Positions 2,721 through 61,285 of a stretch of 64,000 nt of DNA are shown here, in pieces (position 1 is the first letter of the stretch; every line of letters starts with the position of its first letter). The stretch lies in NCBI RefSeq assembly GCF_964204645.1, contig NC_134028.1:5430501-5494500 (forward strand), in the 5' to 3' direction. The DNA comes from Tubulanus polymorphus. Its lineage: Eukaryota; Nemertea; Palaeonemertea; Tubulaniformes; Tubulanidae. A model generated the notes under the pieces. That model had not been told where the DNA came from. It ran no database searches and saw only the letters and a program-made list of their open reading frames with translations. The position numbers and the translations under genes were made by a program.

Positions 2721-5700
2721 ATGGCTGACGAGCAGGATGTGTCGTTTAAACAGGCCGCATCGGATTTTGCCAACGATACTAATTTTCACGGAGTCAAATA
2801 TATAGTGCATTCTGCAAACTGGTTTTCAAGGTAATATAAATGAAATGTTTTTTTTTCACAGGTCAATGTTCTCTTGAAATTTTGGAATGTGCGAATTGAG
2901 AATTTTTTTCAAGAGACTCGCTGCTACTGGGTTACGGTAAAAATTCGAATGCTGGAATAACCCAAACATTTAAGCATCAGGTGCACGAATCAGCTTAGGC
3001 CAGTTCCACGGTTGTGAGTTAAGATTTGACTCGGAGTTAACTCATTGAAAATGAACTAATTTTAACTCAGAGTTTACTCTAACTCGCCACTGTGGAACCG
3101 GATCCTGTGCTCTTTCGAAATCTGAATTACACGTTAGCCTCGAGGGATCGTCTGGCACATATCCAGGGCAGCGAAATTTTCTAAGTGAACATAAACGTTT
3201 ACATCTAACATCTAAAACAATTATACATTAAATAGTTATTTCTAAAATCAACAAATTTCAAGCAGTGGAAATGGTTCCTGTACTAATTAATAACTTGACT
3301 ACAGTAAAGGTTGTTAGTTAAAACTGGTCTATAAACCCGGTCCCCGACCAGTAAGTGTCCCGCATAGCTTGTCGGTTTTCTTGGAAATGTCAATTTGGTT
3401 TCAGATCTGTGTGGTTTCTCTTAGTGGTGGGTATGACCGGAGCTTTATCCTATCAGATGTACGATCGCATACGATATTTTCGATCACGACCGGTTACTGT
3501 TGATATATCTTTAGAGCGCAATCCGGACAATCGTATTCTGTTTCCCGCTGTAACTATCTGTAACCCGAACACCTACAGGTAATACATGCTTAAAAATAAA
3601 TCGATTAATTCGATAAATGCATAAGATTCCAATCCATGAGACATTTTGGTCAGATATATTTTTAGACTTACCGTAAACGGGGTAAAACTTAAAAACGAAA
3701 GAATTTAGAAATAAGTTCTAAGCACGATTCCAAATCTAATCGTTATCCTACCAGACGATCTTATCAATTCTACCATCAATTTAGTCAATTCAATCATGGA
3801 ATCTAAGAGTACATGATTCAATCCCTTGATTTCTAATCGCTATCATTATTCATGTCGTCGTGTCATGTTTTCTGATGGACCACGATGGTAAATCTTTATC
3901 ACAGAATCGTAACATCTCTTTTTTTTCGATCGTTCGATCAAACCGTTTTATAAAACCAGACTGATTGACGTCTACGAACGAGGGATGTATGATGGTTTGA
4001 ATACGTTCTACGGGACAGACGGAGGATTTGACGACGAGATAAGCAGTTTTAGACTCGACGATATGTACAAAATGGTTACAACTCTCGGACAGAAGAAAAG
4101 CGATGCGATACAAAAGTAAGAATATTAAACCGCGTCCACGTCACACACAATGAAAATTATGAACAAAAGTGGCAGTAAAAGCCTAACTGCCATACTTCAG
4201 TTATGGTTGACAGCTCTTATCATATCATTTACTCAGGGCAAACTTCGCAGGTTGGATTCAGGTTGGAAGAAATGCGGGGGAGGGTTGTCACCTTATATGA
4301 AAAGGGCACTTTGTAGTCGTGGCGGGGATCCTGGTGGTGGCAGAGGGCGTGACGTGCTTGCAGGAGGGTCGGGGGTCTTCCCTGAGAAAGATTTTAAAAC
4401 CTAGGTGCTGTAAGCAGTTCTGAGAACTTTCGTCATAGAAATATCAGTGTCGGGTGAAATTTTTCACCCGTGATTTTCAAAAGGGCGCTTGGTGACTTCG
4501 GTTATCGGAGTTAGTCGACTTTGCGAACGAAGTGAAGCCGAATTAAACTGAACTATATATAGTCCGGATATGGTTGACCACGGGATTGAGCACGGTCGCT
4601 GCAGCCTGGACCTAGTTCCAAGATCGCCACCGACACTTTAAAATACGTTAAGACCGAACTACGGCGCGTTCGGTTATTAGCTACGACCAAGCTGTCGACT
4701 GTCAACGGTCGTTCTCTGTTAAAACTGACCGTGGAACGCGGCGTAACTCGTACACACGCACTATGTCGTGGAATAATGATAATAACATTTATTGATGATA
4801 ACGTCTACATAAAATATACACAATATTGTATTATATTACTGTGGACTAGCGCCGAATTCTTCTTTTCTTTCTGAGGAGAACAGTTTTTCAACGAAGTCTT
4901 GGCTAATCGGTATATGAAATAAAATGCCAAATGTCTATGTTACATTTAGTATATTTTGAGTTATTTCTATCCCGCAGAGCCAATTTCCAGTCTCGGGAGT
5001 TAGGCCTGGAGAATTTGACGACTCTGTTGACCGACTACGGACTTTGTTACGCTTTCAATATACGAAATGATACTAACATATTCGCTGAAGGAACGGGTAA
5101 GGAACAATAAAACTGGAAATAGAATAAAACTTCAAATGTTAACTTTTGTAAAGCAAATTCAGTTATTTAATTTCAGCAATTTCAGTTATTTAGTATATCT
5201 AAATTTTGGTGAAATCCAAAATTTCAGAATTATTCTCGAAATGCTCAGGATTAAATTTCTAACATGTAATATTCCGTTTCAGGAATCGCATTCGGTTTGT
5301 CAATCCTCGTGAACACAGAACAGTATCAGTACATGGAAGGGGAGCACAAGTCCGCGGGATTGAAGATACTCGTACACGACAAGAACGAAGTTCCCCGAAT
5401 CAGCGATCTGGCCATGTCAGTACCAGCCACTATGACTGCCGCCATTGACGTCGTGGCCAGCGAGGTAATAACCATCCGTATTAAGATAAAAACCCGTTAT
5501 GTACAAATTAAAAGAATTTTGAAATCAAGAACTAATTATTTCAAAAAATCTAAAATCTAAAATACACGACGTTTCGATCTCATCCTCTGGTGATCATCAA
5601 TGACACCTGACGATGATCTCTAGGATGAGATCGAAACGTCATGTATTTTATATTTCAGATTTTTTGAATTAATAAATTCTTGATCTTAAAATTCTTCTAA

Positions 5701-8700
5701 TTTGTACATAGTGGGTTTTTTTTAATCTTATTATCCGTTCACCACGTTCGAGTGTGGTAATTGTACTAACAACCAACCATGTTCTGTTATAAATATAAAA
5801 ACCTACGATAAAAATAAAGAAGTTTCCAGTTTCTAGGCGCCATTTTGTGGCGGTCCCTCGAGGTCCCCATTGTTGCGATAATTTGCGTTCATTTTTAAAA
5901 CATAAGTTTAGATTGAATACCATATAGTTCTGCAGTCCCTTGGTCTACGAAATTAATTGATACACCATGTTAAAGGAAATGAAATGCAGATAATTGCTGG
6001 CGATTCTTGGAATTTTTGAACGCAACAATTGAGAACAATGACGATATGAAACCAAGGACCGCATATCTTAACCGCGCGTAAAAGAAATCGTAATATTTAT
6101 TAATTTTAAAATATCTAAGTATCTCTTAAAGCTATATTTCCCATTTTCACAGAGGTTAAAGAGGGTTATTTGTAGTTTAAGCTTGCGTCGAATTTTTTTG
6201 AATATCTTTCCTGACGACTGATCTGTACCCGCTTGAGTTTGAGATTACGTGCATAAGGGGTCTCCCACTGCGCACCGCCATTTCACTGAACATTGAGATT
6301 TGTGAAAAGAAATCGCAAAAATAAAATCTTATATTGGTTTGCAATTATTAATATTGCTTCTGATGGTTATATATTACCTTTATTTTTCGTATGCTTGGAA
6401 ATGGACTTTGAGTGCTTTGATGAATTCGAGTTTTGTAGCGTTGGGAAATTAAAGGATTTCTTGTAAGAGTGGGGACTTTCTGTGTTGGTTGCAAATGTGG
6501 CCTAGTTGAGAACCTAATTTGCGTTTCAACCGAATGTACCACTCATGGTTGGACACTAGAAAAAAAATCTAAGTTTTTATATATTTTTGAATATGCGGCG
6601 CAGCTGAAAGATGCCAAACTGGACGTTGACCCCCTAAAACAGAATATCAAATGGGGGACAGATATGAACCCCTTTAAATATTATATTGGAATTTTATATC
6701 AGTAAGGTTTTCTGGTCGATGTTTTCCAGCAAGAAGGTTGAGATTCAGTAAATTCATCGTATGATTCCAGAATGAGGGATTACCAGAGAGCGATATGTGT
6801 TAAATATGTCCTAAGCGTTTAAATTGACTGGCACATTTCACCATCCACTCTAAAACGTTTGATTTCCCCAAACACAAAATCGGCGCTAGGCTGGACGGGC
6901 TGTAGGCTATACGACAATTCCTCAATTGGGCCGTTCAAACTTCAATAGCGGGACAAACCGGATCCAAAAACCAGCCTAACGAATTGCCCCCGCCAAAATA
7001 CGGTACAAACAAGATATGGATTATCATCTCAAAATATCCCCATGGAAAATGTGAAGAAATCAAATTGCATTTAAAAATTTCTTGTCGCAAATCTCAATGT
7101 TCAGTGAAATTGCAATGCGCAGTGGGAGACCCCTTTTGCGCGTAATGTCAATCTCAAGCGGGTACAGATCAGTCGTCAGGAAAGATATTCAAAAGATTTT
7201 AACGCAGGCTTAAACTACAAATAACCCTCTTTAACCTCTGTAAAAATAGGAAATATAGCTTCAAGAGATACTTAGATATTTCAAAATAAGTAGATATTGC
7301 GGTTTCTCTTACGCAAGGTTAAGATATGCGGTCCTTGGTTTCACATCGTCACTGTTCCCAATTGTTGCGTTCCAAAATTCCAAGAATCGCCAGCAAATAT
7401 CTGCATTTCATTTCCTTTAAAATGCTGTATAACCTAAGTTCACCGAGCAAGGGACTGCAGAACCATATGAAATTCAATCTAAACTTATGTTTTAAAAATG
7501 AGCGCACATCATCGCAACGATGGGGACCTCGAGGGACCGCCACAAAATGGCGCCTAGAAACTGGAAACTTCTTTATTCTTAACATCTTCTTAACTTTATC
7601 GGACGGCGAGGTGATATTGAAAAAAACGTATGAAAGTCAAAGTTCAATATAAAATCATCGGCGAGGAAATGATTATCTATATAAAGTTGCTTAAAAGAAA
7701 ACACAAATATGTTTATGGAAACACTCTCTTCACAGACTACTGAACTTGAAGATCCTTATGGCAAGTGCGTAAAAGATGCTAAACCACAGTCTCAGTGTCT
7801 ACGGCGATGCGAGGTCCGGAAAGTTTCGGAAATTTGTAAATGTAAACCATTCTACGCGGAAGACATCGTATCATCCGATACCAAATACTGTACCTTAATC
7901 CAATATCACAAATGTTACTTGCCAGCTCTGGGTAAGTATAGTTCCCGTGTCGCAACGGAACCATAATAGTTCCAGCCTCCAATATCAGATTTTCTTTATC
8001 TACAGCTGAACTGAAGTTGCACGGGCACGCTTGCGAGGCACTGTGCCCAGCCCCGTGCCACAGAAGGACCTATACTTCCAGAATCAGTTATTCGTCGTTG
8101 TCAAGTTTCATGGCAACGCGCATGGCCGATAACTATTCCGCAGACCCCGCAATTACTAACGAATTCGCGAAAGCGCGAGTGGCACTTCACAGAGTCGACT
8201 ACAATTTGAAAAGTAAAGATTATAAATTAGTAAACGAACTTTACGACGAGTTTCAGGAAGCTAAGAACAAAATCAATGCGATGTACGAAGCGTTCGGCAA
8301 AGCGACAGAGAACAATGTTAATGAGACGAGACGAATCTTAAATATGTTACAAGAATCGAAAGATGATCTGTATCGAGGGACAAAGAAATACATCCGAAAA
8401 TCGGCCGTCGATCGAATAGAAACAATGATTTGGACACCGCTGGCAAACCTTCGACAAGAACTAAACTACCTTGTTACCCCCAACTTAAAAACGTTCAAGG
8501 AATATTTGGACAACATGAAATCACCATCAACGACTAACAGTGGTGTTGATATGGATGATGAAAGTTTTAACTCCACAATAACCGTTACGACAGATGTGTA
8601 CAATCGTGCTAGCACTGCAATCCGGTCGGCAGCTTACGAATTTGACGAGGCGTACAAGCGATTTGCAGAGATACTAAAAAATCCGCATGATTATTCAGAA

Positions 8701-10279
8701 TTCCCAGTCAAACAAGTCAAACTAGTCATCAACGACCTTAAAAGCGTTACTCAGACCCTAAAAACTTTAAGCCAGGTATTCAACGGTAATTGTAAAGATA
8801 TCATCGATACTCTGGTATCAATGAAAGACGGTGAATTGCCAGACGAATGGGATGTTTTCGTAGAAACCGCAACCGTTAACTTGTTCCGACTTGTAAGCAC
8901 TATTGAAAACCAAGGCTTGGTGCTTTACGGTAATCTTTCGATTGTATTAGAAGAACTCAAAGAATTTCATACCAGTGTTGGTATGCAAATACTGAAACTT
9001 AGTATGGCATTCGGGAAGTTCATCAATGCGTCGAACGACATCGCCAATTCTGACGACAGTGAAATGATTGATATTCTCTCAAAAATGAAAAACGTCGATT
9101 CGGACCTAGTAGATAGATTGGAAATGGCAATGGATCATAAGGGAACCTCCGTTCACATGGACAAAGTGGTCGAACTTCATTCAAACGGCAAATTTAAAAT
9201 AATGGACACGTTTCTAGCAAGTACGGTTGAATTCCTCGATAGTGACTTCTTAGATCTACACCTAGCGGCCGCGGAGGTGTCCCGAAATTCCAGAACGACC
9301 ATCGACTTCTTTCAAAAGCTGCAAGCCAGAGTACCATTCGTCCATTTCGATGAGGAACTGCGTGATTCGTTGGACGAATTATCCAAGGTACACAAACAGG
9401 TGTCGCTGTTCAAAGAAAATCTTGTCCAATTGCGACAAAAATTACAAAAGAAAACAGAAAATCTGGACAATCACGTGCAACTATTCATCGATGAATCGGA
9501 AACTAGCGAAAAGTTTGTCAGGTTTGTTTACAAGAATCATTTCAATGAAAACAATTATGTATACACGTGTATAGTAGGAATCTCTTGTACTGTTCACTTC
9601 TAGGGAAAATTTTGTGTACGTGAAAGTATTCTTTCGATCGTTAAGAGTCCAGAAACTGGTGAAGTCTCCCGCTTACTCTTGGTTTTCTCTCATCTGTAAG
9701 TATTTAACAATTCATTTCATTTGTTTGTATTATGCACTATATGCCGATGCTGCGGGAATGTACTAGCTATTAATTAATACGCCCTCTTTTGAGAGCTATA
9801 CGTATCGTTACACCTCTGACTGGTTTGAACACACATCTCTGGTTCTAGAGACTCAAATCCTGGGATATTTATGAACGCAGCTTGTTAATCTAATGTCAAA
9901 TTGATTATTTATTACCTGACTTATTGAAAAATGAGAAAATTACGAAATTTAAATCGATCTCGTAACAGCCTCTCAAGGGTTTTCTCATTCTGTTGATAGC
10001 CATTTGTGTGTTCTGTTCATATTCAAATACGACTCAACTGAGCTGCAGATGACTATTACTTTACCTTTGTTTTCAGGCGATATTGGTGGTACGGCTGGTC
10101 TATATTTGGGCGCGTCTTTGTTAGCGATCGTTGAGGTTTTTCACTTTTTGGGATCGCAATTGATTAGCGGTGCGTCGCGATCGCCTCGGAAGAACACGGA
10201 ACGGAAACCGAAAATAGCCGAAAACCATATCGCGGCGCGAGAAGTTTTTGACACGATAATGCCAGAGAACAAAATATGA
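2721..10279 (+). CDS. DEG/ENaC channel A with giant helical ectodomain insertion
   Basis: Nine exons, all joining in phase: 2721-2830, 3405-3578, 3960-4115, 4978-5096, 5283-5464, 7736-7931, 8006-9521, 9604-9695, 10077-10279; 915 residues. Family marks: HG gating motif in FHGVKYI (about residue 23), TM1 at about 39-57, the post-TM1 signature FPAVTICNPNTYR, the palm stretch around residues 190-245, a Cys-rich segment (about 248-330) ending CPAPCH, and pre-TM2/TM2 CDIGGTAGLYLGAS with the GxS selectivity filter GAS at 860-862. These proteins are trimeric sodium channels of the plasma membrane. Typical members have 500-700 residues; here about 465 helix-rich residues (350-815) lie between the last cysteines and the strand ENFVYVKVFFRSL. 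The ligand is unknown. A short basic cytoplasmic tail follows TM2. Intron 5 holds a 1.77-kb fold-back element and a hammerhead-like repeat. Confidence 0.9.
2998..3102. repeat. short palindromic MITE-like element in channel A intron 1
   Basis: Outer ends GGCCAGTTCCAC and GTGGAACCGG are inverted repeats, and inner stretches of TTAACTC/GAGTTAA type are also partly palindromic. It resembles the families at 21431-21583 and 31140-31273, which share GGSCCAGTT-type ends. No coding capacity. Confidence 0.55.
5472..5785. repeat. fold-back element with two head-to-head hammerhead-like cores
   Basis: Lies in channel A intron 5, beginning within about ten bases of the exon-5 splice donor. Left arm (about 5472-5602) and right arm (about 5605-5785) are inverted copies of one sequence, which recurs once more at 63800-63960. 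Each arm has an ACGTTTCGATCTCATCC-type block or its complement. On the + strand at 5607-5640 the pattern is CTGACGA, a stem GATCTC/GAGATC with loop TAGGAT, then GAAACGTC, as in a type I hammerhead with minimal stem III. One extra T follows CTGACGA, and stem I is degenerate here. Confidence 0.65.
5813..7577. mobile_element. long-terminal-inverted-repeat (fold-back) element in channel A intron 5
   Basis: Left arm 5813-6310 and right arm 7081-7577 are reverse complements over about 500 bp each, with scattered substitutions and small indels. They begin AATAAAGAAGTTTCCAG and end CTGGAAACTTCTTTATT. The roughly 770-bp centre (6311-7080) has no recognisable transposase. Architecture is that of a non-autonomous fold-back DNA element. 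No clear target-site duplication was found. A third partial arm lies at 10569-10795. Confidence 0.8.
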
Positions 10280-10568: not shown

Positions 10569-10795
10569 AATAAAGAAGTTTCCAGTTTCTAGGCGCCATT
10601 TTGTGGCGGTCCTTCGAGGTCCCCATTGTTGCGATGATTTGCGCTCATTTTTAAAACATAAGTTTAGATTGAATATCATATAGTTCTGCAGCCCCTTGCT
10701 CGACGAAATCAATTTATACACCATTTTAAAGGAAATGAAATGCACATATTTGCAGGCGATTCCTGGAATTTTTGAACAATTGAGAACAGTGACGA
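10569..10795. repeat. partial arm of the long-TIR fold-back element
   Basis: About 225 bp closely matching the outer part of the arm at 5813-6045, starting AATAAAGAAGTTTCCAG. It stops inside the arm, so it is a truncated copy. It sits about 290 bp after the channel A stop codon. Confidence 0.8.
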
Positions 10796-12263: not shown

Positions 12264-15200
12264 ATGATGGCTGACACGGAGGAGGCGTCACTGAAACAAG
12301 TGATCTCAGATTTTGCGAGTGATACAAATTTTCATGGCGTCAAATATATCGTTCATTCTCCGAGTTGTTTTTCGAGGTAATTGTTTCATAATCTTTTAAA
12401 ACTATCTCACTGTCGTAAGTGTTCGACCTTTTTCAAGATACGCCGGTTCTGCAGTCGAGGCGCAAGTCCAATATGGGCACAATTCTTTTGATCGATTATG
12501 GGCCAAAATGTTTCATGAGTTAAGTTTATAATCTTTCGAGGCAAGGACTATGGAACTGGGATTCTTATAAAGGCACGCACATTATTCGGATTTTAGAGAA
12601 AAACATCCAATACAGTTCAAACCGCTTAAAAACTTTGATGCTGGTTGTTGTATGAGACTTTCTTTTATGGGACAGACTATTCTGGTTTCTGGTCTCTGCG
12701 GAAAATGAAACGTAGGCTTATTTATTGTTTTGTTTCAGATTTGTGTGGTTTCTATTAGTGTTGGGTATGACCGGAGCTTTATCCTATCAGATGTACGATC
12801 GTATACGATATTTTCGATCACGACCGGTTACTGTTGATATATCGCTAGAGCGCAATCCGGACAATCGTATTCTGTTTCCCGCTGTAACTATCTGTAACCC
12901 GAACACCTACAGGTAATACATGCTTAAAAATAAATCGATTAATTCGATAAATGCACAAAATTCCAATCCATGAGACATTTGGTCAGATATATCGTCAGAC
13001 ATATCGTGGGAATTTAGAAATACGTTTTAGGCACGATTCTCAAATCTAGTCGTAATTCTACCAGATGATCTTATCATTAATTTAGTTAATTCAAGACTTT
13101 GGGTCAGATGTATAGTTGTAAACAAGATAAAACTTACACGAAGGAAATTCTAAGTTCTGGGCACGATTTTTAAACTTAGGTCGTATAAATTCTACCAGAT
13201 GATCTGATACGTTCTGTGGCTAAATTAGTAAGCGTTCGAGAATTTGTGGTTTGTTAATTTCAGGTTGAGTGATGTGTACGAAAACGGAATCCACGATACA
13301 TTGTCGACTTTTTACACGACCGGTGACGTGAATGACGATGACTTTTTAAACCAGAGTGATTTACATGAAATGATTACAAAACTCGGACATCGACTGAACG
13401 ATTCATTGTTAGAGTAAGCTAGTGCATATCTTGTGGGGACGGGTTTTTATGAGTCTTCTGATATCAATGATCTTACCCTTTCTCAATGTCGTGCATCTTT
13501 CAATTTCCAGGTCATCGTTTCGGGCTCGTGAATTGAAACTGAATAATTTCACCACGGTTCTCACGGATTACGGCAAATGTTTTACATTCAACGGAAAAGA
13601 CAATCCAGATATACACGCAGATGGAACTGGTAGGCGATTTTAGAAGTATATTCCAATATAACCTTGTGTTTCTGTACTTCCTGAAAATTTGTTCTATAAT
13701 AACGATTAATCAACAAGAGTGTATCTAATTGCTAAAAGAAATGACGAATAAGATGATTTCAAAACATTTCTGATACATTTATGCATTTCCCAAAATGGGA
13801 CCTTAACTTCTACTATGCCCAGACACGCAGTCTGAATAAAGGAATTGATATTATTGTGACCTTCTCGAACGTTCAACTTTAGGAAGCGCATTCGGTTTGT
13901 CCATCATGATTAACACAGAACAGTATCAATACATGGAAGGGGAGCACAAGTCCGCGGGATTGAAGATACTCGTACACGACAAGAACGAAGTTCCCCGAAT
14001 CAGCGATCTGGCCATGTCAGTCCCAGCTTCTATGACTGCGACGATAGACGTCGCAGCAAGCGAGGTATGTTTGAATAAACCGGTCGTGTATAGGTAGTAC
14101 TGGATCAAACGGTAAAAAACTAATGAAATGAACTCATGTTGGCGTCTTCATTCCTTCCATGATTGTTTTATATATATTAGATATTTCCAAATCTGTTTCA
14201 TCCGATGTTTTTGACTTTTAAATTCTCGCCACATTCATGGTACATATTACTTGTCCACCAGATAGACACATGAATCATATCCATACTTTCACTATTCATT
14301 ATAGACTTCTGAGCTCGAGTATCCATATGGCAAGTGCGTAAAAGATGCTAAACCACAGTCACAGTGTCTACGGCGATGCGAGGTCCGGAAGGTTACTGAA
14401 ATCTGTAAATGTAAACCATTCTACGCGGAAGACATTGTATCATCCGATATCAAATACTGTACCTTAATCCAACATCATAGTTGTTCCTTGTCAGCTCTGG
14501 GTAAGACATCAGTTTGTGTGTCACCTCCTCGGTGTTTGTCTTCAGTACGTATCTTACGTTTTGTTCTCTGGTTTTGGAAATCATTGAGTGTATACATTGG
14601 ATCTATATTTTAGATACGTACCTGTACACTTATCATGCAGAGTCCATAGTGCTCGATACAAATCGCAGTAATGAAATTAATGTATTTGCTTCGATTTTAT
14701 TTACAACAGAAGAACTGAGGAAGTCCGAGCAAACATGTGAGGTAGTGTGTCCAGTACCGTGTCACCAAATAACTTATAAGTCTAGAATAAGTTACGCGTC
14801 CATGTCGAGTTATATGGCAAAACGAATGTCAAACAGATTCTCGGCGAATTTCAAGTTACGAAAAGCAGTCACTCGCGCCAGAGTTATTTCCCATTTGCTC
14901 GATACAAAACTCCAGCACAACGACTTTCTGGCCGTCATGCAGTTCGTCCTACACTTCCAACAAAGTATACAGTACTTGCATAACCTACGCGACCGATTCT
15001 TATTGGTATACGGCGATTTAGAAAAGCAGAGAGGAAAGATTACCGCCTCTCTACGGAAGGCTCAATCCGACTTGAACCAAATCAAGAAGGAATACGCGCG
15101 AATATCAGCCTTGAATCATGTGGATTCACTGTTCAGGTCACCGATAGCCACCGTGCGATATGTACACGCCAATTTAGAAGTCATTAAAACTTACTTGTTC

Positions 15201-16633
15201 GAACCCAATGCTTCAAATGTGAGTGCAGAAGCATTCAACGAGAAAGTCTCAGCAACCGCCGATGTTTTCAGATCCGTTAAAATCGCAATCATTTCAGCGG
15301 TCAACGAATTAACCGATGTATATACGAGTCTTGACGAAATTCTCACTTCGGTGGAAAGTCGTCGAGGTTTTCCGTATTTACAAGTGGGAAAAATTATCGG
15401 TAACCTAGGAGTTGCCGCCGCCGCGATGGAAGTGTCGAGCATCCAGATGGAAAAGGATTTCGAACAGGTGTTAGAAAATCTCAAGTCACTGGAATCAGGA
15501 GGAGATTTGCTTGTGGAATGGTCGGATTTCGAATACATCTCCACCACGGAGATACCAATTCTTATCGACGCACTTGAATATCAAAGTTCCGGGTTTTATG
15601 GTAATCTGTCTAAGGTATTCGAAGAGCTTGAACAATTTCATGTAAATGTCGGCTTACATGAAATGCGATTTGACATGGCTTTTATGAAGTACGTGAACGC
15701 TTCGCGTGCCGTCATCGACGCCGAAAGCGGGAGCAATCTTTTTCATCTGATCAGCCTAATAAAAACTATAGAAAATACGCTAATTCTAAGTCTCAACAGA
15801 ACGATCGATTTGAATGGTTACGTGAACCTGAGCAAACTGCTCGGTAAAAATCTGAGATTCGATCATCTCGATATTTTTTATGAACGTTTCGGATTGTTCG
15901 TTGAAAATGAGTTTTTAGGCCTAGCAGTGGCACTCGACGAGGTCGTCGGCAATACCGCGTACACGGTGGATTTCCTGAAAACTGTGCGCAATGCTGTCAA
16001 TCTCACTGATCCCGATAGCAAAGAACACGAAACACTACAAGATGTGGCCAACGAACGAGACAGAATACGAAAAACTAAACACGAACTGGTGCAAAATCGG
16101 GCAAACGTTGACACGAAACGAAAATCACTACAGCGTAATGTAGAAACATTCTTTGAATCAACAAAAATCAACGAGAAATTTATTAGGTTTGTTCTATCCA
16201 GGTCACCCATTGACTTTTAGGGCCCGATTCTATCTTACCCTTAATATACATTTTCAGACTAGTTAATACACCTTCATTTCTATTTCACTTGTAGGGATAA
16301 TTTTGTCTACGTGAAGGTGTTCTTTCGGTCGTTAAGAGTTCAGAAACTGGTGAAGTCTCCCGCTTACTCTTGGTTTTCTCTCATCTGTAAGTCTTTAACG
16401 GAAAGTTTCATCGGTCCGAAATCATATTCTTTTCCATTTGTTTTTTTGGATATCTCTATCAGATTTTTTTTTCAGGTGATGTTGGTGGTACAGCTGGCTT
16501 ATATCTGGGAGCGTCGTTATTGGCTATAGTTGAAGTTGTGTATTTTGTATGCAGTCAGTTTCAGCGGTCAGTGTTAAAATCTTATCGCAGAAACTGCCGT
16601 GCTACTTCGCTAGGCCCTGCCACTCAACCCTAA
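12264..16633 (+). CDS. DEG/ENaC channel B, tandem paralogue with the same insertion
   Basis: Same nine-exon plan and intron phases as channel A: 12264-12376, 12739-12912, 13264-13413, 13511-13629, 13883-14064, 14305-14500, 14710-16186, 16295-16386, 16476-16633; 886 residues. The first of two adjacent ATGs is used as start. It has FHGVKYI, TM1, FPAVTICNPNTYR, the Cys-rich block ending CPVPCH, and CDVGGTAGLYLGAS before and in TM2. The insertion occupies about residues 352-803. It is clearly homologous to that of A but much more diverged than exons 2, 5, 6 and 8, which are nearly identical in DNA. The two inserts share the block YGNLS..EEL..FH and two sequons (NLS, NAS). The C-terminal tail differs from that of A. 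Like A, it should be a cation channel subunit, perhaps co-assembling with A (inference). AATAAA at 17064-17069. Confidence 0.9.
12975..13215. repeat. internal duplication in channel B intron 2
   Basis: Two roughly 110-120 bp units (about 12975-13095 and 13105-13215) share phrases such as GGCACGATTYTYAAA and TCTACCAGATGATCT. Channel A intron 2 has a single unit (about 3650-3790), so the duplication arose in B. Confidence 0.55.
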
Positions 16634-17178: not shown

Positions 17179-19022
17179 ATGATGTCTGTGAAGATGTTTG
17201 TCGGCTGTCTGTTGCTGGGAACTTTGTCAGCGGAAGCTGTTTTTTATGCGTTTAATTGGATCCAAAAGCGCCGTCGAATGTGGGCCGCGAAAAAACCGAA
17301 CAAAATACTGAAAATCTTATTTTTCCCCGACGAAAATATGAGTTGTCAGGCATTTTTCAGAGACAGAAAAGGCTGCAGAAATCACGATTGCCGCTACAGC
17401 CACGAAACTACATCTTTAAGCCAGCTGCTATGTTTCTTAAATGCCGCAAAATCGAACTTGGATTTGTGTATATTTTTGATCACCTCACCGGAATTAGGGG
17501 ACGCAGTCGTTAATCTGCATAAGAGAGGAGTGGTTGTCAGAGTTATTGTCGATAGCGAACAGATCGACGCAAGCGGCTCTCAGATTGGAAAGTTTAGGTC
17601 GGAAGGTAAATATAGTGGTTTCGTCAAACAGCAGGGTATAAGGTTCACCCAGCACTGGCAGTGGTTGTCTCCACCAGTGATCTCCGTCGCTCTACGATCC
17701 TAGTGTAACCAACCACACAGACGCGTGCATTCAAATTCGCTGTACAGTTGCCGACCAGAATTTGGTCGGCTTTTTTGTCTGTGTTCAAACTGCGATATCT
17801 CGGCAAATAAACAACCGATTTTGATAAATAAACTATCTACACTAACCTTATGATGTCTTACGTTTGTTCATTATATCATTTTGACGATAAATCTGATTTT
17901 AGTACAATTAAATTTAAGATACAAAAATGATGCGCTGTTTAGTGATGGGACACGCATCGCTCAAGTGTCTTGTTGCTAACGAACTACAGTGTTACAATGC
18001 CTAGTTTCAAAGTGAAAAAATGGTGTCATTTTTGCTATTTCTGTATTTATATCGCATCAAGCACGGACTATGATGAAGGAACCTCCGAATGAATATAATA
18101 ATAAGAAAACTGAATGTTTGAGGTTTGTAAAGAGAGTTTATTTTTCACAATCGGTTTGGTGAAACTGGATTTCTGGTGGTTTAAAGCTGCAGTGATCTAA
18201 AAGTATCGAGAAAATGTCGTTCGCATCTTAGTGTCTGTGGTACATCAGACACTAAGATTCTTGGTGAAGGTATAAGGGTGTGTGCGTGTAGGAGGCATAT
18301 ACTGTAAGGTCTAAGCCCATCCGATTATAAAAAGCTTACCACCAACGATTAGGTAACTAACTACTGTAAGGTCATGTTGTAATTCAGACTAGTGCACACC
18401 TATGATCATCCATTAAATTAACTGAAGGATACCTATAACACCTGTATGATTGGAGACTACTAATAGGGGTACCTTGAATGACAAATTGCCAATGCTACTG
18501 CTGTGGCATTTGACGATTCTACTTACGGCAAGCAAGGATCTGCAAGTCTCACTAGTTATAGTTTATTGGTGTTCTGGGATCATGTTCTTCTACATTTCAG
18601 TTAAAATCGAATGAACTTTTTTTCTCTTGGTAAATCAATTCTTATTGACCACCTCCCTGGATCCGCCCAGTGTGGGAGCCTAAGAATCGAAATAAAACTT
18701 CAAGCGCCCCATTACCTGACTATCTAAAATAGGTAGCCCTAAAATGTTTGCGCTGTATGTTTTAGATTCTGAGTACGCAGTTTATCTTATCTTATTTCCA
18801 GGTATTCAAGTTCGTCACGATCAAACATCATATTTTATGCATCACAAATTCGCTATCGTCGACAATACCATACTTCTGAACGGTTCGTTCAACTGGTCGC
18901 GACAAGCTATCACGGGAAATAACGAAAACGTTTTAGTCACCAACGACGACGAAATTGTCCAACCGTATTGCCAAGAATTCAGAAGCTTATGGACGACGTT
19001 CGACCCTGCTTCGATTCTATGA
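17179..19022 (+). CDS. PLD6: mitochondrial cardiolipin hydrolase / Zucchini-type endonuclease
   Basis: Two exons, 17179-17605 and 18802-19022, joined in phase 1; 215 residues, close to vertebrate PLD6. The N-terminal hydrophobic segment (about 6-25) followed by basic residues fits an outer-mitochondrial-membrane anchor. A Cys/His cluster at 56-75 (C56, C66, C71, H75) matches the CCCH-like insert of the family. The single HKD motif is intact: H156-x-K158-x4-D163 followed by GSFN at 170-173, so a homodimer would form the active site. PLD6/Zucchini works in piRNA biogenesis and phospholipid hydrolysis at mitochondria. The first of two adjacent ATGs is used; a four-codon upstream reading frame starts at 17171. 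The intron carries a 0.6-kb transposon. AATAAA at 19310-19315. The start lies only about 110 bp after channel B's polyadenylation signal. Confidence 0.92.
17644..18268. mobile_element. non-autonomous DNA element in PLD6 intron
   Basis: Begins TTCACCCAGCACTGGCAG and ends TTCTTGGTGAA, giving short inverted termini (TTCACC/GGTGAA). A 12-bp hairpin stem (TCTTAGTGTCTG and its complement) lies just inside the right end at about 18226-18257. A shorter copy with the same ends but most of the middle deleted is at 22845-22946. No transposase reading frame seen. Confidence 0.65.
18312..18365. repeat. dispersed repeat shared with 57003-57066
   Basis: The stretch reading CTAAGCCCATCCGATTATAA, then AGCTTACCACCAACGATT, is repeated with few changes near 57003-57066. 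It lies in the PLD6 intron just after the 0.6-kb element. Confidence 0.6.
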
Positions 19023-23705: not shown

Positions 23706-24650
23706 ATGTGCGTCTTTTCGAAGCAGATGGAGGAAGTAGAGGCCGTTTACAAACAGAAATATGATAAATTTCTGCGGTCTAGAAAGGATTTATGTCAAGT
23801 GATTCTGAAACTTGCCGCAGCTTACAAAACACACGACAGAAATGTGAGGAAAGCTAAGATTACGTCGGCTGCAGTTGGTTTAGGGGTCGGTCTTCCACTG
23901 TCTGTGGCTACATTGGCACTGTTCATAGTCACTGCTGGTATAGCTGTACCAATCGTTGGTGGTGTTGCTGCCGGAGTTGGTGTAACCACAGGAGTTGCTG
24001 GTTCTGGTAGCGATTTGACGCTGTGGGTTATTGGTAAAAAAATTCGAAAGCGGGTGAACCGAGTTATTGAGGCTCATATTAAAGAAATGGAAGAGTTGGG
24101 GAATTTGCGAGCTAGATTATCTGAGATGTACGAAGACCTGAAGAGGGAGCAGATTAAACTAGGTAAATACCTAAATGAGAAATATATAATGTAATAACAT
24201 AATCAATACTTTCAACTTTTTTTTATTCAAACAGGTGTATTTGGAGTTGGGGGTATGTTGAAAGGAGCAGGCATAGCGATCACGAAACCCTTTGCCATAG
24301 TTGATGATTTCATTACTATAGGGCGAATAGCCAGTGAAGGTCTTGAAGCAGGGGGCGCTGCATCGAAAGCCGGAACCTCAATGTTTAAAGCCGTAGGAAC
24401 TGCGGGTAAAGTCTTCCAGATTGGTGGATTCGTATTTTCCCTAGTCGGGGCTGGAGTAGATATCTACACGATAGTCGACTCGGCCAGGGAGTTACAGAAG
24501 CCGGGTCCAGAGTTAGAAGCGAAACTAGTTGAATTAGTTTTTGGTGAGATGGTTTTGAATGAAGAACACAGAGAGGAGCTGAAATTGTTCTGTATCGAAA
24601 ACGACATATCTGCGATTCCTGAACCAGTCCCGGTTGCAGTGAGTCTCTGA
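23706..24650 (+). CDS. apolipoprotein-L-like glycine-rich membrane protein
   Basis: Two exons, 23706-24162 and 24235-24650, joined in phase 1; 290 residues from ATG 23706 (an in-frame ATG at 23631 would add 25). Order: N-terminal amphipathic helix, a long hydrophobic glycine-rich segment (LGVGLPLSVATLALFIVTAG then IAVPIVGGVAAG), a Lys/Arg-rich helix, a second glycine-rich stretch at the start of exon 2 (GVFGVGGMLKGAGIAITKPF) and a third hydrophobic segment (FQIGGFVFSLVGAGVDIYT). This is the pattern of APOL family proteins, which insert into membranes through paired hydrophobic helices and can form channels. Invertebrate members are poorly studied. A 5' exon may be missing. AATAAA occurs at about 24920. 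Confidence 0.7.
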
Positions 24651-58200: not shown

Positions 58201-58859
58201 CTACAGAAATTATGAGATATATATACAATCCAGAGACAAAGAGACTAATTCAAGTAATCAGAGATGATACAAACTAAAGGAAAATTAACGTAGAAACAGT
58301 TACACGCTAAAATAGATCATCAATTTCGTCTCTGACTTAACTTGTATTCACCTTTGTTTTAATTTAAGTGCCCCCTAGTTTGTCTTTCTTTTTACTACTG
58401 ACTTTAAGTTTCATTTATATTTATACTCACTATTGTTGTTTATAATCACCCCTTAGTTTGCTTCCCTTTAATCTCATTTTTATTTTACAATTGCGATTGG
58501 TATAATTTTTTTTTAAACGGCCGTTAAGGCTTCATGTTTCGTCTGCAATTCACTGCAAATAGTTACGCAACTACGCACATTTCAGTGTTTTTGGCAGGTG
58601 TACACTCAATCGGCACCGTTCGTGACTAGCTTCACTGCGGAATTATCATTAATTAACATCGCCATATCACATCATCAACTTATATTGTGCCTTAAAACCC
58701 TAACAGCCGAAATAATGAGGACTCTACGTTCGACTGTGGCAATAGAGGGTTCCACTTGTGGCAAGCGAGGATGCAGCGAGGATCCACCAGGTTCGCTAGT
58801 GTGCACTCAGACCGGTCCGCAACAGATGGTTTGGCAGGGACTGTAGAGATGCACAGAAG

Positions 58860-61285
58860 AAATATAATTATATGAAAAAAAGATATAGGGGTTGCCCTAC
58901 CCCTTCCAATTTTGAATCCCTTAAGAACTCGTCTAAAAACTATAAAAAGGTCATCCGAGGAAATAAGAAGAAACAAAAGGATGAATTTATTAAGGAATTG
59001 AGAGAATGCGAAATTAATAACCCAAAAAAGTATTGGTCGATGCTAAACTCTGCGAGCGGAACAAAAAATAATGAGGCTAATATAGATATTGATATTTTTC
59101 TTGAACATTTTATGAGATTAAATGATTTGAATAATGTTAACAATGAAACCGATGACGGTGATGAGCCCCCAGACGTGGGTGACCATCCTGTCTATGACAA
59201 TTACATTTTGAACAGTGATATAACCAGTGATGAGGTAATTAAGGCTAAGGTAATCTCTTTACTCAAAAACAATAAGGCCCCAGGCATTGATGGAATCACG
59301 AATGAGCTGTTGGGAGTTAGTCAGTATCCGTTTTTAGTTGATATATTACAAAAATTATTCAATTTAGTTCTTAAAACAGGATATGTTCCAGAGATGTGGT
59401 CTATAGGCGTCATCAAACCCATTTTCAAAAAGAATGGCGATCCCTCTAATCCTGATAATTATAGAGGTATTACCTTAGTTAGCTGTCTTGGTAAATTATT
59501 TACAAGTATCCTAAATCAAAGATTGTCAACATTCCTAGATACGAATCACATTATAAGTGAAGCCCAGGCTGGCTTTAGATCGAAATATTCCACCATTGAT
59601 CATATTTACACGCTTAAAACAATCGTAGAGCTGTATCTTTGTCAGGGAAGAAGACTTTTTTGCGCCTTTGTTGATTTTAAGAAAGCTTTCGACTCGATTT
59701 GTAGGGTAACGTTATGGCGAAAATTAATTGCTAACAGTGTTAATGGAAACTTTTTCAATGTGGTCAAAAATATGTATAACTCTCACCTATCCTCTTTTCG
59801 TTATTCTTAAACGACATTGAAGAATTTTTCATTGATCGTGGAAAACCGACTTTGTCATTTATAGAAAAACTAAATTTGAATCGTGATCAGGATATTGATA
59901 CTTTACTGAATTTATTCATAATACTATACGCAGATGATACAGTTATTCTTGCTGAGGATGCGAAATCTCTTCAGCTACACTTAATGGTCTTAATGGTCTC
60001 ACTGTTAACTCAGAGAAAACTAAAGTACTAGTATTTGCGCGAAGTAAATCCCGGATAAAAACGATTTCGAAATTTATGTTTGGTGATCAAGAGTTAGAGG
60101 TAGTTGAAGATTATGTTTATCTCGGAGTAAAATTCAATTGGAATGGTAACTTTGCTAAGGCAAAAAAGTATCTTTACGATAAAGCTATGAGAGCTATGTT
60201 TTCGATCGTTCAAAAAGGCAGACGTTTGAAATTGCCCATAGATGTTATGTTTAAATTATTTGATACGTGTGTTGCTCCAATAGCCATGTATGGGTGTGAG
60301 ATCTGGGGATACGAAAATCTTGATTTATTAGAAAATATTCATTGCTTCTTCTGTAAAATCTTAATGAAAGTGACGAAATATTCTCGCAACTTACAAGTTT
60401 TATCAGAGCTAGGCCGTTACCCTTTGAATATAGATGTTAGACGCAGGATGATTAACTTTTGGGTTAAAACAGTATCTGGAAAGCAAACCAAACTTAATTC
60501 AATACTCTATAAAATATCTTTCAATTTATTTTTAAGGGATAAATTTAAGAGCCCTTGGTTATCATATATAAAGAAAACGTTTGATGACTGTGGTTTGTCC
60601 TGCATTTGGACGCAGCAATTCATGACTAACAGTAAATCTTTTTCAAAACGAATAAAACAGATACTCCGTGACCAGCACCTTCAAGAAACTGTATCTGCCA
60701 TTTAAATACTAATCCGATATACACTAACTTTAGGCAATATAAAAATGATATTAGGTTAGAGAAGTATATAATAGAACTTGGTGAAGACTTAGGAACTAGT
60801 TTATTTGAATTTAGGGTGGGGTCCTATATTTTACCTGTGAACAAATTTTCAAACCTTCATTTAGACAGAGCCGATAGAATATGCCCCACTTGTAATACTT
60901 TAGGTGACGAATCCCATTTTCTGTTTGACTGTACCTTACTTAACGAACAACGCAAAAACTTTTTGAATTTGAATACCTTAAATACCCTTGACATTCTGAA
61001 AAACCCAACGGTCAACTTAGCTAAATTCATTAAGACCGGCTTAGATGTATATAGATCCCTCCAATAGTATATATAGTATTGTAAATAGTTGATGTATATA
61101 ATAGTATATATAGTATTGTAAATAGTTGATGTATATATATATATTTTGTTACGTTTTCATTCTCTAAATTTTAATCACTTCAGTGTTGTTTTGTAAATAT
61201 TTGTATATACATGTGTAATAGCTTTCCTCCATATACCATGGAAATGGTTGGAGTGTAAATAAATCGTAATCGTAATCGTAAACAT
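58860..61285 (+). mobile_element. degenerate non-LTR retrotransposon with reverse transcriptase
   Basis: The reverse transcriptase is spread over broken frames. 58872-59810 encodes the fingers/palm (NNKAPGIDGITNELL, NPDNYRGITLVSCLGK, QAGFRSKYSTIDH, FVDFKKAFDS). The active-site YADD lies at about 59931-59942, after a frame break and deletion. 60076-60705 encodes the thumb/C-terminal part, and after one more frame shift 60720-61067 gives the zinc-knuckle end (ADRICPTCN, DESHFLFDC). The endonuclease domain is absent, so it is 5' truncated. The 3' UTR ends AATAAATCGTAATCGTAATC, a CGTAAT-type tail. Not intact, so presumed immobile. Confidence 0.9.
61062..61141. repeat. short tandem duplication in LINE 3' UTR
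   Basis: Two direct copies of about 36 bp containing AGTATATATAGTATTGTAAA then TAGTTGATGTATAT. Confidence 0.85.

Follow-up and report, generated by a model that had tools for sequence, protein, structure and literature searches.

A large, probably helical insertion in the knuckle of DEG/ENaC channels from the nemertean Tubulanus polymorphus

Protons, peptides, and force all act on DEG/ENaC channels through an ectodomain that varies rather little in size. Channel A, a gene within a 64,000-nucleotide stretch of the Tubulanus polymorphus genome (the window; NC_134028.1, positions 5,430,501 to 5,494,500, forward strand), departs from that constancy: Its reading frame runs on for several hundred additional residues inside the ectodomain. 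We asked whether this segment is a genuine part of the protein, what kind of structure it forms, how many channels carry it, and what it may do at this position.

The Segment Between Knuckle Helices α6 and α7

Channel A and its tandem paralogue, channel B, share an exon layout (Table 1), and a profile search of the genome matched the exons of both to PF00858 (ASC) above cut-off. Both translations carry FHGVKYI (with the HG motif), FPAVTICN, CPxPC, and GAS; in A, FHGVKYI is N-terminal, FPAVTICN follows TM1, and the GAS filter lies in TM2. Ahead of the insert, gene B matches the profile as far as about position 390; beyond the insert, gene A takes the match up again at position 390 (9.4e-14). 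Outside the insert, the best-matching solved structures for A are ASIC2 (8.9e-36) and ASIC5/BASIC (1.8e-33), which outscore FMRFamide-gated channels (6e-25) and ENaC subunits. Judged by its sequence, channel A is a member of the DEG/ENaC superfamily.

Table 1. Features of the channel A and channel B genes, in window coordinates
Feature	Position	Strand	Basis or remark
Channel A, DEG/ENaC subunit, 9 exons, 915 aa	2721-10279	+	GT-AG introns throughout; unbroken frame; start and stop
Channel A, exons 1-5	2721-2830, 3405-3578, 3960-4115, 4978-5096, 5283-5464	+	
Channel A, exons 6-9	7736-7931, 8006-9521, 9604-9695, 10077-10279	+	
Channel A, finger exons 3-4	3960-4115 and 4978-5096	+	Strong sequence divergence from their B counterparts
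Channel A, exon 7: last Cys motif, α6, entire insert, first α7 residues	8006-9521	+	
Channel A, probable inserted helical domain, ~450 residues	8116-9480 (limits approximate)	+	ASIC2/ASIC5 alignment gap; periodicity; all-helical model
Channel A, exon 8, back into palm at ENFVYVKVFFRSL	9604-9695	+	97% identity with B
Channel A, exon 9: TM2, GAS filter motif, short C-terminus	10077-10279	+	ASIC TM2 alignment
Gene-conversion-like tract, A exon 2 and start of intron 2	3394-3793	+	86% DNA identity to B 12728-13094
Channel B, tandem paralogue of A, 9 exons, 885 aa	12267-16633	+	GT-AG introns throughout; unbroken frame
Channel B, exons 1-5	12267-12376, 12739-12912, 13264-13413, 13511-13629, 13883-14064	+	
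Channel B, exons 6-9	14305-14500, 14710-16186, 16295-16386, 16476-16633	+	
Channel B, exon 7 with homologous insert	14710-16186	+	30% identity to A

The vertebrate channels ASIC2 and ASIC5/BASIC present the same succession of TM1, finger, thumb Cys motifs, knuckle, TM2, and GAS filter as A but lack the residues that A adds between the knuckle helices. In an alignment to solved ASIC5, the gap-flanking residues 351 and 812 of A pair with residues 398 and 406 of ASIC5, so that A is longer by a net ~453 residues at the α6–α7 turn; the ASIC2 alignment points to the same site. The added sequence lies within one open frame (7942–9603, 553 codons), and the exon inside this frame is bounded by AG and GT. 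After CPAPCH, exon 7 leads by way of RISYSSLSSFMATRMAD to the insert, and family sequence resumes at ENFVYVKVFFRSL in exon 8. Outside this region, A also differs from ASICs at positions tied to gating. His73 and Lys211 of mouse ASIC1a are required for proton activation (PMC6827283, PMC10507113); canonical proton gating of A is unlikely, since a single pairwise alignment with ASIC2 places Pro and Gly at these positions.

The insert of A contains 1 Cys, 1.8% Pro, and 28% charged residues. Its hydrophobicity shows a 100-degree periodicity above composition-matched shuffles (z = 7.9), as do seven paralogue inserts (z = 2.9–7.2), and in the same eight inserts periodicity at 170 degrees, the β signature, did not exceed shuffles. 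N-glycosylation sequons number five in the A insert and one to eight per insert across members, with few positions common to different subfamilies; we count them as support for an extracellular location. Taking existence, position, and helical nature jointly, we consider it very likely that A and B each carry a helical domain of ~450 residues between α6 and α7. An earlier note on this DNA had described a long insert in a single open exon, and the exon 7 frame, the gap in the ASIC2 and ASIC5 alignments, and in-frame recurrence in 19 aligned paralogues confirm it. The same note's account of a Cys- and Pro-poor composition is borne out by the counts above, and its placement of the insert in the knuckle by the two alignments.

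Substitution patterns bear on whether the segment is translated at all. Insert dN/dS ranged from 0.29 to 0.65 over twelve close paralogue pairs (~0.5 in a cluster on C6), dS exceeded dN in each pair tested, and purifying-selection Z was approximately −2.7 to −6.1 in the five pairs subjected to that test. Splice sites flanking the insert are conserved among paralogues, and five genes have an intron inside the insert with the frame still preserved. Purifying selection, conserved flanking splice sites, and a frame kept across introns together provide good sequence evidence that the insert is translated, and its in-frame, near-constant length in the 19 aligned paralogues under purifying selection places it beyond chance. 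That exon 7 is instead mostly spliced out, leaving a long but untranslated frame, is hardly credible: Twenty paralogues preserve the frame, purifying selection is seen throughout, the conserved splice sites bracket the whole insert, and the intron-split paralogues stay in frame.

Predicted Fold and Searches for Relatives

An AlphaFold2 model built from the A plus B sequences was nearly unbroken helix, with a mean pLDDT of 62 and values of 70–90 in much of the center; with B as query, the helix layout was alike but of low confidence (pLDDT 46.6). In the model, the confident part (residues ~140–310) looks like a compact four-helix bundle. The earlier note had proposed a "helical or coiled-coil" assembly; periodicity and the all-helical model uphold the first term, whereas the one confident part, being bundle-like, lends no support to the second. 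A stalk-and-head geometry for the whole insert is a guess from the models, of which that of A has moderate confidence and that of B poor.

Sequence and structure comparisons returned generic helical matches. Against Pfam, the insert gave nothing above cut-off and weak coiled-coil-type matches that mostly differed from member to member; NCBIfam gave no match, and profile matches in the PDB were to designed bundles and coiled coils. Foldseek with the insert model yielded no match at E ≤ 0.001, its top rows being microtubule and coiled-coil proteins. In a second structural alignment, residues ~120–320 gave Z values as high as 15.6 with designed bundles and 12.6 with FAT domains, values typical of generic bundles. 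We dropped identification with a known domain, as the Pfam, NCBIfam, and PDB sequence searches and Foldseek gave only low, inconsistent, or generic matches; a remote relation to a known helical domain may nevertheless exist.

Profile comparison of insert segments revealed no internal repeats except one overlapping segment pair. Scans whose reach is close relatives found no prokaryotic or viral relative of the A insert. A genome search for stand-alone copies, with two main-group members and one second-subgroup member as queries, found none; its matches were DEG/ENaC loci and one at chance level. A full-text search of open-licence literature retrieved no report of a knuckle domain of comparable size. 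The earlier note's statement that no such insertion had been described thus stands for a large domain in that literature but not for insertions at this site in general: Trichoplax TadNaC channels have insertions between the knuckle helices, modeled as loops (PMC6827283). Those predicted loops are short and belong to channels of ordinary size, in contrast to the hundreds of residues found here. Similar insert-bearing proteins may also sit unremarked in databases of other animals.

The Carrier Family and the A/B Mosaic

Although the earlier note presented channel A alone, its insert, itself real, is carried by a clade of ~27 genes that includes the tandem paralogue B. Searching the genome with the insert of A and reading the matching loci identified 20 genes in which an in-frame segment of 472–503 residues extends from the last Cys motif up to α7, distributed over six chromosomes (C2, C4, C6, C8, C10, and C11). 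Nine of these genes, in tandem and in both orientations, occupy ~70 kb at C6:7105206–7176824, and two further carriers lie at C11:8.649 Mb and C2:1.508 Mb. A divergent subgroup has inserts of ~530 residues or more (C1:26.80, C1:28.68, C6:4.09, C6:0.543, and C1:0.963 Mb), the last two members being known only as matches adjoining DEG/ENaC exons. Carriers thus make up ~27 of roughly 45 DEG/ENaC loci in the genome, a total that reflects our own grouping of PF00858 matches. The usual short turn is present in at least seven DEG/ENaC genes (C3:5.63, C2:0.39, and C6:4.24, 4.604, 4.607, 4.610, and 5.90 Mb).

When the insert was excluded, a tree of the channel core united the sampled carriers (support 0.944); the tree was seeded on A and B, frames overrunning exon ends make some columns noisy, and its deep nodes call for caution. 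This grouping makes a single ancient insertion the likely source of the carriers, and no loss of the insert was seen within the clade. Part of the divergent subgroup may be of independent origin, to judge from the C1:28.68 carrier, which matches the family profile over its first 70 columns only.

Two DEG/ENaC loci also have unusual sequence of a different kind. The gene at C6:3254100–3257150 has a Thr/Pro/Ser-rich, mucin-like stretch upstream of its TM2-side exon and may carry a different, Thr/Pro-rich knuckle insertion instead. The C8 carrier gene spans a long minisatellite with several frames open (C8:15197150–15198200).

Conservation within the insert is concentrated at its ends. Among eight diverse members, alignment identity was 52% in columns 1–20 and 26% in columns 521–540, and the middle has diverged. 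Between subfamilies the insert retains 15–26% identity, against ~50–75% for the TM1 and β-ball exons, making it the least conserved long segment. Such divergence, with the relaxed dN/dS of the C6 cluster, is what a tolerated filler would display, namely an old, harmless insertion drifting under weak constraint to stay folded and soluble. We consider this highly unlikely, because the length is held within its narrow range in 20 genes, the clade shows no loss, and dS is significantly greater than dN.

Comparison of A with B reveals a mosaic of exons, which extends over window positions 3394–9708 against 12728–16399. Exons 2, 5, 6, and 8 show 97, 90, 88, and 97% identity and dS values of 0.10 (0.095 before rounding), 0.29, 0.25, and 0.27, respectively, whereas identity falls to 42, 50, and 30% in exons 3, 4, and 7. 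In exons 1, 3, 4, 7, and 9, dS exceeds 1.7 and synonymous sites are near or at saturation. The likeness of the two genes extends ~200 bases into intron 2. Given this alternation of low-dS and saturated exons and the identity reaching into an intron, the simplest reading of the sequences is that scaffold exons 2, 5, 6, and 8 were homogenized by gene conversion, whereas finger exons 3–4, the insert, and the ends diverged separately.

Other elements were noted around the two genes. Intron 5 of A harbors a foldback element at window 5809–7581 (two 505-nt arms, 90% complementary, 763 nt between), of which a further end copy lies at 10578, downstream of A, and a smaller inverted repeat at 5488–5720 (99-nt arms, 35-nt spacer). 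Directly downstream of B, a gene for a PLD-like domain (PF13091) with a Cys-rich N-terminal part (17179–19022) resembles mitochondrial PLD6/Zucchini by eye. Also by eye, the last exon of a gene at 117–291 resembles in translation the death domain of UNC5-type netrin receptors, and adjacent open frames with glycine-rich hydrophobic stretches (23706–24191 and 24198–24650) resemble APOL-like membrane proteins; the first of these frames has no Pfam match. A broken LINE reverse transcriptase (PF00078) occupies 58800–61067, and a near-identical piece of it adjoins the DEG/ENaC carrier at C11:7549950. Elsewhere on C6, a compact Hox cluster (C6:5318222–5634753) contains ten matched homeoboxes, all on one strand, among them what we take to be Lox5-, Lox4-, and Lox2-like genes, the first with a KLNGP-type peptide; this complement points to a lophotrochozoan.

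Candidate Functions of the Insert

The corner of the ectodomain that varies among carriers is a ligand site in FaNaCs, the FMRFamide-gated DEG/ENaC trimers of annelids and molluscs, which match A less well than ASIC2 or ASIC5 do. In the sections of the FaNaC1 structure paper cited here (PMC11026163), the peptide pocket comprises finger helices α1–α3 and α6 of the neighboring knuckle, and peptide binding pulls finger and thumb, opening the pore. Unlike the carriers, FaNaC1 is described in those sections with no mention of a large knuckle domain.

A related arrangement can be proposed for the carriers. Helix α6 would continue as a long helix into the insert and the last long helix of the insert would return into α7, with a helical bundle between them, so that each subunit of the trimer would bear a head that rises next to the finger, above the outer rim. 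Together with the adjacent finger, the head would then offer a variable surface on which peptides, matrix, or cell-surface partners could be recognized. A bound partner would displace finger and thumb, much as FMRFamide displaces them in FaNaC1, and the conserved sodium pore would open.

That such recognition is the main function of the insert has, on sequence and analogy, about an even chance. We favor it because finger and insert diverge together, at a corner matching the FaNaC1 pocket, and we count toward it the standing of the insert as the least conserved long segment between subfamilies. Tandem clusters are common among recognition receptors, and the 70-kb cluster of nine carriers was counted on the same side. 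Against recognition we count dN/dS below 1 in the segments tested. The contrast between A and B weighs differently: With scaffold exons converted, it shows that the insert escaped homogenization rather than that selection drove its change.

The main rival is mechanical. A glycosylated helical head could link the channel to matrix or cuticle, so that a pull opens the pore (force from filament). Load transfer suits long helices, each insert has between one and eight sequons, and glycans at the knuckle have a precedent: N511 of α-ENaC is needed for the full shear response, and an added knuckle glycan site in δ-ENaC raises the shear response in a matrix-dependent manner (PMC7958617). The α-ENaC site likewise links channel to matrix by an extracellular knuckle modification, although there the tether is one glycan and in the carriers it would be a protein domain (PMC7958617). 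A tether should be conserved above the scaffold, yet the insert is the most diverged segment, and subfamilies share few sequon positions; we therefore regard tethering as the principal function as unlikely.

Less probable still is a regulatory or assembly domain that binds no outside partner and instead governs how subunits pair, traffic, or gate, for instance by capping the upper vestibule as an inhibitor. The knuckle has been implicated in ENaC sodium self-inhibition, according to work cited in PMC6827283, and conserved insert ends around a diverged middle fit a structural role at the base. Alone, however, such a role leaves a large, diversified family with a changeable middle unexplained. 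The carrier family could also contain both recognition heads and tethers.

We tentatively propose, at somewhat less than even probability, that one clade of channels gained a knuckle domain which then diversified along with the finger, giving a large set of recognition heads that sit on a common sodium-channel base; such channels would constitute an undescribed class of receptor channels. In the carrier clade, a new domain nearly the size of the remaining subunit has become fixed at a corner that holds the peptide site of FaNaC1 and a shear-tuning glycan of ENaC, and the clade thus offers a natural experiment in the coupling of stimuli to the pore. Should the inserts be recognition modules, this lophotrochozoan would possess a large receptor family not described before; should they be tethers, they would provide a protein component of a force-from-filament channel.
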